Assembly: GCA_010909725.1 (NCBI GenBank)
Contig: JAACMV010000004.1
Location: 744,001 to 808,000, forward strand
Direction: 5' to 3'
Length of the DNA stretch: 64,000 bases
Origin: Picochlorum sp. 'celeri'
Lineage: Eukaryota > Chlorophyta > Trebouxiophyceae
Positions 24,315-62,844 of this stretch are shown piece by piece. Under the pieces are notes generated by a model, which saw only the letters and a program-made list of their open reading frames with translations, did not search any database and was not told where the DNA came from. Both the position numbers and the translations under genes were made by a program. The first letter of the stretch is position 1; each line of letters opens with the position of its first letter.

Positions 24315-25481
24315 CTACTCGCTTTTGTAGACGTGCCATTCATCATCATTATTATTATCCACTAATAATATAATATGCTCTTGTTGTCTGCTACAACACG
24401 TGGCAAATTGTAACGCTGACATTCTTCTCCCCCTCATTCCGGCCAAAATAGTAGCTGCCATCATTTCACATTTTCGAGAAGTCTCCCCATCATCCTTTCT
24501 TTTCCTTTGGACTGCGCCATGATCACTCTCTTGTACCGGACTTGGAGTCTCTACCTGCCTGTCCCTTCTATTTGAACTTGGTCCTGTGGTACCGAGTTGG
24601 GATAGCCATGCATGTCCTGATGGGCTTGTACCAGATGCGTTCTGAGCTTTGCACAGGGTCTTCAAGTCTCTCGTAAGACTATCATGTGTGACATCCACTG
24701 CCATAGTGATGTTGATATCGCTCACAAGTCCCAGAGCATGGGCTTTGTATAGGATGGAAGAGCACAAGCGGACAAGGCAGCACAGTTCGTCCTGCTGGTG
24801 TCCAGTACCGATCTGGCGGGACGCATCCAAAGCATCAGGATGTTTTGGTTGTCCATTGAATCCTGGAAGAAAATCTTCGGTAGGAATTTCTCGACATGGC
24901 AAGATGGAGTCAGGGGACCCATCAAAGACACCCCCATCAAGGGCATTCTGCTCTGATGTGTCGCCACTACCATCTCCTGCTGGTACCATTTTTTGTCGCA
25001 CCGGAGAACGCGGAGAAATATCATCATCCAGAAGGCCATCAAATTTTAATGGCGAACCTTGGAGTAGATCCCCTTCGCAAGACTGCGGCAAAGACCCATT
25101 GAAGCCTTATGCTAATGTGTCACCATCTGCCCCACTTCTTGGCTGCACAGCGCGCGCAGCAACACGCCCTGCGTTATCATTATCTGGTGATCTTTGGCGC
25201 TTACCATTGCCACTCGATGGCGATGGGTACTCTCGAGGATTGATAGCCCTTTCCTGGCGCTCAGATGAAGTAGATGTCAGAATAGATGCTTTCATCAGCG
25301 AGATCTGCGATTCCCTAAGTTTTACGGCATCCTCCCCCTTGATTTTCCTGGAGAGACTTCTGTTCGTCGAGCTTAACAGCGCCTTCCAGTTCTGATTCCG
25401 TGCGAGATCACTATGGCTACCATTGCACCGGATATATGTACAAAGAAGGACACGGATGCATACTGCTGCAGTTCGTGTCAA
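24315..25481 (-). CDS. Unrecognised Ser/Pro-rich protein, gene model uncertain
   Basis: Two in-frame open stretches (25481 to about 25110 and 25091-24315) are separated by one TAA. A 66-bp intron with a GTGCAG donor and CCGCAG acceptor, ending just before 25077, removes the stop and keeps frame, matching local intron lengths. The donor is weak. No in-frame ATG starts the upstream part, so a further 5' exon is probable. The protein carries several Ser/Thr-Pro sites (SPLKFDG, ISPRSPVRQK, VETPSPVQE), a basic patch KRKDDGETSRK, and a hydrophobic helix LCCLVRLCSSILYKAHALGL. No family recognised. The phosphosite-like composition suggests a nuclear regulatory protein, which is only a guess. It starts 23 bp beyond the convergent poly(A) polymerase stop. 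Confidence 0.4.
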
Positions 25482-25499
25482 ATCTCCGAATCTATTCAG

Positions 25500-25901
25500 C
25501 TACATTGACGCCTCAAAAACCATGGAGAGCTCCGTTTTGGCTTCTGTAACTATGGAGGAGGATTTCTCCAATGAAGGTTTGAAATCATCAGTCAACACTA
25601 TACAAAACCTATGTGATGTGCTGCTTCCTTTACTGTCTTCTGGATAGACGATAAGATTTGCATCACCCATGAGACATTTCACTATTCTTTTGAATTGTCT
25701 ATATACACTTTCTGCTGAAAATTCTTCGGGAAAAATGATTTCACAGTGGACAAATGGCAGTTGTCCACCTTCCAGAAGACTGAACCTGTTGCAGGTGTGA
25801 TGAAGTCCACATCGAACCTCGATCGTTCTATTCGTCTCATAATAAATCTCATGGAGTTTGGTTCTGAGACCTTCCTGGAATTCATCGCTAAAGTAGGCCA
25901 T
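25500..25901 (-). CDS. Small unrecognised protein
   Basis: A 133-residue uninterrupted frame from the ATG at 25901 (MAYFSDEFQEGLRTKLHEIY). Its composition looks like a folded mixed alpha/beta protein: VRCGLHHTCNRFSLLEGG, then PFVHCEIIFPEEFSAESVY, FKRIVKCLMGDANLIVYP and HRFCIVLTDDF. No known domain recognised. It lies on the same strand just upstream of the previous gene, only 18 bp from its open frame, so the two could be exons of one gene. A GTTTTTGAGG donor at the end of this frame is possible but does not give a convincing continuation. Confidence 0.45.
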   Translation of the reverse strand: MAYFSDEFQEGLRTKLHEIYYETNRTIEVRCGLHHTCNRFSLLEGGQLPFVHCEIIFPEEFSAESVYRQFKRIVKCLMGDANLIVYPEDSKGSSTSHRFCIVLTDDFKPSLEKSSSIVTEAKTELSMVFEASM

Positions 25902-26650
25902 TGTTCGTTCGTTTGGCAAAGAAAGAGAAAAAGAAAGCAAGAAAACCCCGAAAAGCACTCTATGCTATATCACCGTTGCCTCTGCATATCGGAAATAGTA
26001 ACATGTCTATAAATCGTTGTGAATTGGATAGAAGAAGCCGCGACAAAGTGTTTGTGACAGAATTGTTGATTCGAGATGATCGAGTAGTAGATGTCGCTCG
26101 CAGCGGTTGAAACCGTTTCGAGCGGTGATCAGCTTGCAAACATGGGTTCAACACACATATAAACACCAACATGTCGTATATATGTGATACTAATCACATA
26201 TGACAGCACGTACAAGAGTTTCGGTTTGAAGTTGACTTTGCGTTCGACTACTCTCAGCACTTGAGAAGAAAGACAGTCGGTACCTAAACAGAGAATAATT
26301 ACTACTCCTGTTGGATATATAATATGAATTGGAGGGCTATTACATGTTGCAGTGCCTCATGATGGCGGAGTTTTGCGGATTGATTCTCGAATCGTGTCCT
26401 TCAAAGCGCGGGTAAATTCGAATTCGCGAATTCGATTGACAGCCCCTGTCAAAGGCTCTTTCCCAAGGGATCGTAGGAAACCCTTCCCCGAGATGGTAAT
26501 TGTATCCCATCAAAAGGAACGTTTGACCGGCGATAAGAAGATATGTTAGGAGATGTGAGACTCTCTTGGTCAAAATCGACTTGTGGTGTGATTACAGATG
26601 AATATAAACGTATAGAAGAAGACAATGATGCAAAAAGATAAAAGAACCGG
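25902..26650. other. Gene-poor region upstream of the permuted tRNA, with perfect palindromes
   Basis: About 750 bp with no supportable coding sequence. It contains an 18-bp perfect palindrome TCGAATTCGCGAATTCGA (26418-26435), directly followed by a small hairpin with stem GACAG/CTGTC (26438-26450). Open frames on either strand here (26352-26549 +, 26340-26573 -) lack conserved motifs. No U-snRNA, SRP or RNase P consensus was recognised. Confidence 0.4.
26632..26643 (-). terminator. Candidate Pol III terminator for the permuted tRNA-Ala
   Basis: Reading the minus strand downstream of the tRNA 5' half, TTTT (26643-26640) and TTTTT (26636-26632) occur 7 and 14 bases after the last tRNA base. 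Runs of four or more T are the standard Pol III stop signal. Confidence 0.6.
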
Positions 26651-26753
26651 TTGCAAAGCAGACGCATTCCCACTATGCCACAGCCCCGGTGTTTTGGATG
26701 TTCTTGACACCTTCGATGTGGAGCTGGGAGGAATCGAACCCCCGATCTTCTGC
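26651..26753 (-). tRNA. trnA-UGC: Circularly permuted tRNA-Ala(UGC)
   Basis: On the minus strand the order is: 3' half 26753-26719 (bases 39-73), spacer 26718-26688 (31 nt), 5' half 26687-26651 (bases 1-38). Joined, they form a full cloverleaf. The acceptor GGGGCTG pairs with CAGCTCC with one wobble, G3:U70, the alanine identity pair. The D stem is GCAT/ATGC with loop AGTGGGA. The anticodon stem TCTGC/GCAGA is perfect with loop TTTGCAA, anticodon TGC at 26655-26653. The variable loop is AGATC. The T arm is GGGGG-TTCGATT-CCTCC. The A box TGGCATAGTGG and B box GGTTCGATTCC match consensus in full but in reversed order. No CCA is encoded. Permuted tRNAs are known from Cyanidioschyzon and from some prasinophytes, where they mature through a circular RNA. 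A conventional tRNA on this strand is excluded, because neither half has its partner on the normal side. Confidence 0.93.
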
Positions 26754-26838
26754 ATTTTCGTAGACTCTATATAAAATTTTCTCCAGTATCTGAACTGTGT
26801 TTTACCAACACGCGGTCTTTGATTTTTTTATTTTTTTT

Positions 26839-27024
26839 TCAGCCGTGTTTTCTGCACGCCAAGGCTCTGGACAGCGGATCCGACCGCCCCTTGGTGTGCT
26901 GAAGAAGCAAGAGAGCCGACACGCCAAGGCGCTGAACAGGAGGCATGTTGCCCTGCTTGTCTGCCCAGACTTCTGCACCATAGCCGCGGGAGGATAGGGT
27001 ATCGTTGATCACCATCTTCTTCAT
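26839..27024 (-). CDS. Possible small protein of 61 residues, unconfirmed
   Basis: An ATG-started frame (MKKMVINDTLSSRGYG...) whose GC content is higher than its flanks. It contains RGYGAEVWADKQGNMPPVQR and ends SRALACRKHG. No family recognised. The frame overlaps the CACGCCAAGG repeat structure, which could equally be the reason for the base composition. Kept as a low-confidence candidate. Confidence 0.2.
   Translation of the reverse strand: MKKMVINDTLSSRGYGAEVWADKQGNMPPVQRLGVSALLLLQHTKGRSDPLSRALACRKHG
26855..26939. repeat. Two near-identical 20-mers flanking a complementary segment
   Basis: CACGCCAAGGCTCTGGACAG (26855-26874) and CACGCCAAGGCGCTGAACAG (26920-26939) match at 18 of 20 positions. 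Between them, CCTTGGTGTG (26889-26898) can pair with the first ten bases of either copy, with one G-T pair, so two mutually exclusive hairpins are possible. Confidence 0.6.
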
Positions 27025-62258: not shown

Positions 62259-62368
62259 GCGCCCGTGGTGCATTGGTAGCATGCCTGCCTTCCAACTACA
62301 GTAACATGTAGCGTCTCATCGCCTGGTGATGAAAGCATGCGGACTGGGTTCGATTCCCAGCGGGCGCA
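62259..62368 (+). tRNA. trnG-UCC: tRNA-Gly(UCC) with a 39-nt intron
   Basis: Acceptor GCGCCCG/CGGGCGC pairs perfectly, with discriminator A at 62368. D stem GTGC/GCAT, anticodon loop CTTCCAA with TCC at 62291-62293, T arm CTGGG-TTCGATT-CCCAG. The intron 62295-62333 lies after base 37, the standard eukaryotic place. The anticodon stem CCTGC/GCATG has one C-T mismatch. The B box GGTTCGATTCC is exact. A TTTTT run at 62377-62381 can stop Pol III. Confidence 0.9.
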
Positions 62369-62844
62369 CTCTATCCTTTTTAAGGAACTTTACTATTTTT
62401 ATCTTTTTTAAAAAGATACGGGAACCAAGGAATCAAGTAAAAGCGGCCTTAAGAAATTTTCTAGAATGGGCGTCCATGTCCAAGTACACGAAATGTGTGT
62501 CCTAAGGACACTGGTGATTTGCAACAGACTGATTGCACAGGAACTCAATGATATAAGTCCTGAATACGTGTGTGCGTTCTCTCACTTTAGATGTTCGTAA
62601 GCTACGATAGTTACTTGTTTATATACCGTAGTGACGAAAAGTATAGTTTCGGTTTTAATGTCTCATCCCGGGGTGCCTCTGGACACATTATTAGGTGCTC
62701 AGACTGACTGGGAGGGCCCTAGATTCGGGGCTTAGAGCCATGTGTTGGTAATGTCAAGCCATTCTGTGGTATTTACAAAGGTGTTAAATGCATATGAAGC
62801 CCACTCCCTCAGTCAAGAGAGGCTAGAAGGTCCGATTTTGGCAT
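62369..62844. other. Sparse region after tRNA-Gly
   Basis: About 475 bp with no supportable gene. It begins with the Pol III T-run. Frames here are short and without motifs. Confidence 0.35.

Follow-up and report, generated by a model that had tools for sequence, protein, structure and literature searches.

A nuclear circularly permuted tRNA-Ala(UGC) gene and ten further permuted tRNA gene types in the green alga Picochlorum sp. 'celeri'

The minus strand of the analyzed window (the whole stretch of 64,000 nt, C4:744001-808000, where C numbers denote contigs of the assembly) carries a nuclear circularly permuted tRNA-Ala(UGC) gene of type II, i.e., with the 37/38 junction. We consider it highly probable (roughly 0.93) that this gene is functional and that its tRNA matures via a circle. 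A search of the assembly for permuted tRNA genes, suggested by an earlier sequence-only reading of the window, yielded 10 further permuted types. Each of the 11 types is present on both haplotypes, giving 22 genes, all permuted at 37/38.

Organization of the tRNA-Ala(UGC) locus

On the minus strand, the locus reads leader, 3' half, 31-nt spacer, 5' half with the UGC anticodon, and T-rich trailer (Table 1), bearing out the permuted order and spacer proposed from the letters alone. The 3' half contains the 3' anticodon-stem strand, the variable loop, the T arm with the B box, the 3' acceptor strand, and A73, while CCA is not encoded. The 5' half contributes the 5' acceptor strand, the D arm with the A box, and the anticodon. 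The first T4 stretch begins at +9 after the 5' half.

Table 1. Features of the permuted tRNA-Ala(UGC) gene (window positions)
Feature	Position	Strand	Basis or remark
TATA-like TATATA upstream of 3' half	26768..26773	-	sequence; promoter role putative
Leader strand -6 to -3, bulge-helix-bulge central helix	26757..26760	-	pairs with anticodon-loop nt 32-35
3' half of tRNA-Ala(UGC), positions 38-73	26719..26754	-	joined fold, alignment
31-nt intervening sequence joining acceptor ends	26688..26718	-	T4-free inside
5' half of tRNA-Ala(UGC), positions 1-37	26652..26687	-	joined fold, alignment
Anticodon-loop nt 32-35, exon strand of bulge-helix-bulge central helix	26654..26657	-	
T runs right after 5' half, probable Pol III terminator	26632..26643	-	TTTT 26643-26640, TTTTT 26636-26632

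When joined between A37 and U38, the halves give a 72-nt cloverleaf of -27.5 kcal/mol. Pairing is complete in the acceptor stem (7/7, including the G3:U70 wobble), D stem (4/4), anticodon stem (5/5), and T stem (5/5, one G-U), and the consensus nucleotides U8, A14, G15:C48, G18G19, U33, U54U55C56, and A58 are present together with G3:U70. This joined fold confirms the complete cloverleaf, the G3:U70 pair, and the A and B boxes described earlier. The division into two halves and the spacer length also stand, but the outer ends given then, 26753 and 26651, are each one base off and are better placed at 26754 and 26652. Similarly, the junction had been drawn as base 37/38 joined to 39; this register is shifted, and the canonical 37/38 cut (A37^ / ^U38) fits better. 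A T (U38) precedes the 3' anticodon-stem strand in all six tRNA-Ala genes found, and the base after A37 varies among them (A, A, A, C, G, G). The cut is placed at A37^ / ^U38 because U38 is constant, the trailer base is variable, and the junction helix described below fits this register.

Neither ARAGORN nor Rfam (gathering threshold) called a tRNA at this locus. A conventional tRNA gene, with or without an intron, is ruled out by the reversed order of the halves. By its gene arrangement, the locus also falls outside the class of split, trans-spliced tRNA genes, which have their halves at separate loci; here, a T4-free stretch of 31 nt is all that separates them.

The published Picochlorum celeri genome is a phased diploid of 27.43 Mb in two sets of 15 scaffolds with 46% G+C (PMC7225527). 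The assembly used here counts 27,412,692 bases in 30 contigs, in which tRNA and other matches are mostly paired, and the window has a G+C content of 42 to 46% in 4-kb steps. The genes flanking the locus are eukaryotic. A eukaryotic, diploid assembly supports the nuclear identity that had been assigned to the gene.

Permuted and conventional tRNA genes across the assembly

Permuted genes were located with a scan script applying stem, loop, and spacer criteria, with 37/38 as the sole junction looked for. The first scan covered 44 loci plus the window, 287,948 bases in total with overlaps between loci counted repeatedly, and returned, at a score of ≥34, exclusively permuted tRNA-Ala genes: UGC on C4 and C30 (the other-haplotype copy at C30:784066-784168), AGC on C30 and C4, and CGC on C16 and C10. 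T-loop words were then mapped across the whole assembly, giving 187 sites: 42 for GGTTCGANTCC (24 for the backward-word control), 46 for GGTTCGANCCC (59), 50 for GGTTCAANTCC (39), and 49 for GGTTCAANCCC (35). Since these totals are little above those of the controls, the majority of the sites are due to chance. Known tRNA genes account for 36 of the 187 sites; the sequences of 92 were examined, 9 of these being other-haplotype partners of matches, and 59 were judged by position. For 54 of the 59, an examined partner exists by position. The other five, all on C21, are partnered if C21 is C1 inverted, with the offset taken from the identical locus pairs L163/L195 and L160/L196.

Scanning the examined sites gave Gly(GCC), Cys(GCA), and Ser(GCU), as well as Leu(AAG), Leu(CAG), Leu(UAA), Arg(UCU), and Ser(AGA), which together with Ala(UGC), Ala(AGC), and Ala(CGC) form the 11 permuted types. 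Their spacers measure 11 to 58 nt. Among gene types with the surveyed T-loop words, 11/27 are permuted and 16 are normal (three named by hand), a share that refers to these words and the 37/38 junction. No T4 lies inside any of the 14 distinct permuted genes (last six nucleotides of the 5' half excluded), and a T4 follows within 30 nt downstream in 10 of them, leaving four without; in Leu(UAA), a TTTT extends into the anticodon loop. A TATA occurs within 30 nt upstream in 5/14. ARAGORN named none of the 11 permuted types correctly, and the tRNA sets of such genomes therefore look falsely incomplete.

A conventional tRNA-Ala was also looked for, as had been recommended, and none turned up in several partial searches. 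Rfam tRNA models gave 34 matches, none of them Ala, with 63 of 866 candidates scored. BLAST with the joined tRNA-Ala(UGC) sequence met the permuted loci alone and missed two of the six permuted Ala genes. The first ten Ala nucleotides, GGGGCTGTGG, occur at 72 sites: 6 are the permuted genes, 40 were examined and rejected as tRNA genes, both with ARAGORN and on visual inspection, and 26 are placed where other-haplotype copies are expected, 2 of these solely if C21 is C1 inverted. The 42 GGTTCGANTCC sites revealed no conventional tRNA-Ala, consisting of known tRNA genes, examined sites, and positional haplotype copies. The 3' word CCCAGCTCCA has 128 sites, 100 of which were in the list examined. 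Pairs of GGGGCTGTGG and CCCAGCTCCA within 300 bp on one strand number at least four, and all four are in permuted order. The sequence-only reading had named a normal gene elsewhere as sole source of the mature tRNA, alongside a silent locus, as what would speak against its proposal; regarding the normal gene, these non-exhaustive searches found no normal tRNA-Ala.

It is reasonably likely that all cytosolic Ala tRNAs (UGC, AGC, and CGC) come from permuted genes alone, one ancestral permuted gene having replaced the normal ones and radiated by duplication and anticodon change. The best-surviving alternative, although unlikely, is that the permuted genes are minor and that a conventional tRNA-Ala with a different acceptor start, a different T arm, or an unusual intron was missed. 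The partial nature of the genome searches leaves room for such a gene, as do the two permuted Ala genes overlooked by BLAST and the C4 allele of AGC, from which the T-loop word used in the search is absent. Against it, every one of the GGGGCTGTGG and GGTTCGANTCC sites is accounted for as described above, in part by position.

If the Ala set is wholly permuted, all cytosolic Ala decoding passes via circular RNA, and the circular pathway is essential and no curiosity beside normal genes. In that case, the enzymes of the pathway and any benefit that it brings would be genetically testable in a fast-growing alga.

Pairing, junction motif, and allele divergence

As a random control for the scores, first-order Markov sequence (198.6 Mb) was generated from the dinucleotide frequencies of the window and scanned on both strands. 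This control produced two matches at a score of ≥36 and none at ≥38. The tRNA-Ala(UGC) gene scores 40, in agreement with the earlier judgment that a chance match is very unlikely. All 11 types score 38 to 40 on at least one haplotype, and the lowest-scoring alleles, Ala(AGC) on C4 and Ala(CGC) on C16, reach 37. The later scans, of T-loop sites and haplotype partners, were run with more permissive stem criteria than the control; with 7 acceptor and 5 anticodon pairs each, however, all 22 genes also satisfy the control's limits.

A model (R1), for which four Ala genes and swapped normal tRNAs served as input, recovers all 22 permuted genes, with E values from 3e-20 to 2e-5. In a search of 227,255 bases from 35 sources, its best match other than the six Ala genes has 23.9 bits and is located beside a normal tRNA; the weakest permuted gene, Ser(AGA), is little higher, at 26.6 bits. 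In the R1 alignment, which is fitted to the structure model and hence biased toward it, the 22 genes form 17 distinct rows with 95.2% of 355 cells paired (acceptor 100%, anticodon stem 92.8%) and changes on both sides in 19 of 21 pairs. None of 500 shuffles matches this alignment on any of five measures, and sliding the structure lowers pairing to 36 to 51%. In this alignment, the stems formed between the two halves co-vary. Free folding with RNAfold reproduces the cloverleaf exactly for 4 of the 14 distinct mature sequences, namely, both UGC alleles, CGC on C10, and Cys; misfolding of bare tRNA sequences is common in predictions of this sort.

In the bulge-helix-bulge motif, the cut sits inside the two bulges. 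The strict geometry, with two 3-nt bulges around a 4-bp helix as given in PMC3978253, was superimposed on the 37/38 cut, so that loop nucleotides 32-35 are expected to pair with leader nucleotides -3 to -6. At tRNA-Ala(UGC), all four pairs of this central helix form (one G-U). The leader strands of the two UGC alleles read CGAA and CAAA, and each pairs with UUUG. Overall, the 14 distinct permuted genes show 44/56 pairs, compared to 33.7 ± 2.6 when leaders are shuffled among genes (3 of 20,000 deals reach 44) and 18 to 27 in seven other registers. When each type is represented by a single gene, 34/44 pairs form, a number reached in 7 of 20,000 shuffles. Two of the 14 genes, Cys and Ser(GCU), have just 2 and 1 of the four central pairs, respectively. 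The outer helix h' of the strict motif has no pairs at tRNA-Ala(UGC) and at least two in 3/14 distinct genes; the predicted motif is therefore mostly of the relaxed form. Junction pairing at 37/38 across 11 types offers a testable rule for locating permuted genes.

For all eight non-Ala permuted types, the mature parts are letter-identical between haplotypes, and the spacers differ in three. The three Ala types have alleles identical in 64/75, 58/74, and 66/73 alignment columns. The differences sit mainly in the D arm and, for AGC, also in the anticodon stem, where the alleles read CUUCC/GGAAG and UCUCU/AGAGA, each with 5/5 pairs. The Ala alleles have thus diverged far past the published average of the genome, an SNP heterozygosity of 0.8% (PMC7225527), with pairing kept. 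Their surroundings are divergent as well, C4 and C30 being 89 to 97% identical, with duplications. Among normal tRNAs seen on both haplotypes, the mature sequence is mostly identical. Exceptions are Trp (L057 and L058, L numbers denoting examined loci), with one T-stem pair exchanged, and tRNA-Lys(UUU) (L030 9611-9718 and L031 8057-8163), where several T-stem bases differ and pairing is kept; the Lys alleles adjoin the same repeat family as the permuted Ala genes.

The locus could in principle be a dead leftover of two tandem normal tRNA-Ala genes that lost their outer halves, the inner ones persisting by chance. Tandem duplication with loss of the outer halves is indeed a plausible origin of such genes, but as a description of their present state we regard it as most improbable. 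The 22 genes keep the between-half stem pairs with changes on both sides, the non-Ala mature parts stay identical across haplotypes though 3/8 spacers differ, only one register shows the junction pairing, and the partial searches described above revealed no normal tRNA-Ala that could take over the function.

Proposed maturation and relation to known permuted genes

Because Ala and several further tRNA genes have swapped halves, the cell probably makes these tRNAs via a circular intermediate. For tRNA-Ala(UGC), we infer transcription, cutting, circle formation, end trimming, and aminoacylation. Pol III would transcribe leader, 3' half, spacer, 5' half, and trailer as a single RNA ending in the T run. 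The halves would fold into a tRNA from whose anticodon loop the loose leader and trailer hang, and these, together with loop nucleotides 32-35, would build the relaxed bulge-helix-bulge site. The splicing endonuclease (Sen2/Sen34) would cut after A37 and before U38, and ligation of A37 to U38 would create the circle. RNase P and tRNase Z would then excise the 31-nt spacer, followed by CCA addition. The published algal model fits the testable features at this gene. That the gene is expressed with its halves joined in trans from two transcripts, in the style of split tRNAs and with no circle, is highly implausible: the same junction motif would suit a trans reaction, but the halves lie on one strand with a T4-free spacer and T runs after the 5' half, and circles have been detected by RT-PCR for permuted tRNAs of red and green algae (PMC3978253).

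Candidate genes exist for the two catalytic subunits of the splicing endonuclease: the Sen34-like one lies on C7/C24, and the Sen2-like one occurs on C10/C16 as well as at other places. A profile search for tRNA ligase (PF09511) gave no match here and none in any control genome either. The Sen2-like gene has seven equal-score matches (C9, C12, and C26:1564-1779; C21:81237; C25:30222; C10:613187; C16:614070). Three copies, on C9, C12, and C26, begin at base 1564 of their contigs, and those at L065 (C10) and L066 (C12) are 100% identical across 3,216 bases. These copies may reflect a recent amplification close to contig ends or, alternatively, an effect of the assembly.

Permuted tRNA genes are already known, including from the trebouxiophyte Auxenochlorella (2025). 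A review (PMC3978253) tallies 34 of them, with spacers of 1 to 74 nt and with all green algal ones but one at 37/38. The 11 permuted genes that its Table 1 lists for Cyanidioschyzon merolae resemble those described here: the 3' half comes first, a terminator-free spacer joins the acceptor ends, a T stretch follows the 5' half, CCA is unencoded, and a bulge-helix-bulge is present. However, in C. merolae, the Ala(UGC) gene has a 59/60 junction and an 8-bp spacer, compared to 37/38 and 31 nt in Picochlorum, and junctions occur at four places, whereas all 11 types here lie at 37/38, the sole junction scanned. In the same table, Ostreococcus and Micromonas account for 19 genes, at 37/38 in all but one. 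Leu(UAA), Cys(GCA), Ser(GCU), Ser(AGA), and Arg(UCU) are common to these prasinophytes and Picochlorum, which raises the question of whether those permutations date to the origin of green algae. Ala, Gly, Leu(AAG), and Leu(CAG), all found here, are absent from the green algal entries of that table. The archaeon Thermofilum pendens likewise has the permuted order and a splicing motif at the junction, but differs in its 59/60 junctions, extra 37/38 introns, and encoded CCA (PMC3978253). Auxenochlorella UTEX 250-A is, like the present alga, a diploid, streamlined trebouxiophyte with permuted genes; its tRNAscan-SE set was incomplete, and the permuted genes were then found, as reported in 2025 (PMC12636532, PMC12633428).

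For Picochlorum, no permuted tRNA genes were mentioned in the titles and abstract openings searched, a scope that mostly excludes subscription papers, and the genome paper on Picochlorum SENEW3 does not contain the word 'permuted' in its main text. Permutation of the whole Ala set found and the strongly divergent Ala alleles look new.

Repeats accompany several of the tRNA genes. A repeat of 93 bp with an A run at its end (window 26823-26915, minus strand) has, besides its allele, 13 other matches among the examined loci (85 to 100% identity over 60 to 100 bp). Copies lie approximately 56 to 118 bp upstream of tRNA genes for Asp, Asn, Phe, Lys, and Ala in the same orientation, and some have no tRNA found alongside. 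This repeat resembles the 3' terminus of a poly(A) retroelement often located near tRNA genes. A multi-copy gene or repeat family (window ~24376-26570, minus strand) occurs downstream of permuted Ala genes and tRNA-Lys(UUU), as well as in L032 and at one place of L030 without a tRNA; it has no Pfam match above the cut-off, and the copy at L028:6077 begins within 2 bases of the end of the tRNA 5' half. A tRNA-like repeat at loci L083 and L090 (C8:59353 and C8:537665) has a perfect T arm and an inverted repeat of 7 bp, but a fitting acceptor partner was not found for it. Finally, the window holds a normal, intron-bearing tRNA-Gly(UCC) gene at 62259-62369 on the plus strand, which is also present on the other haplotype.
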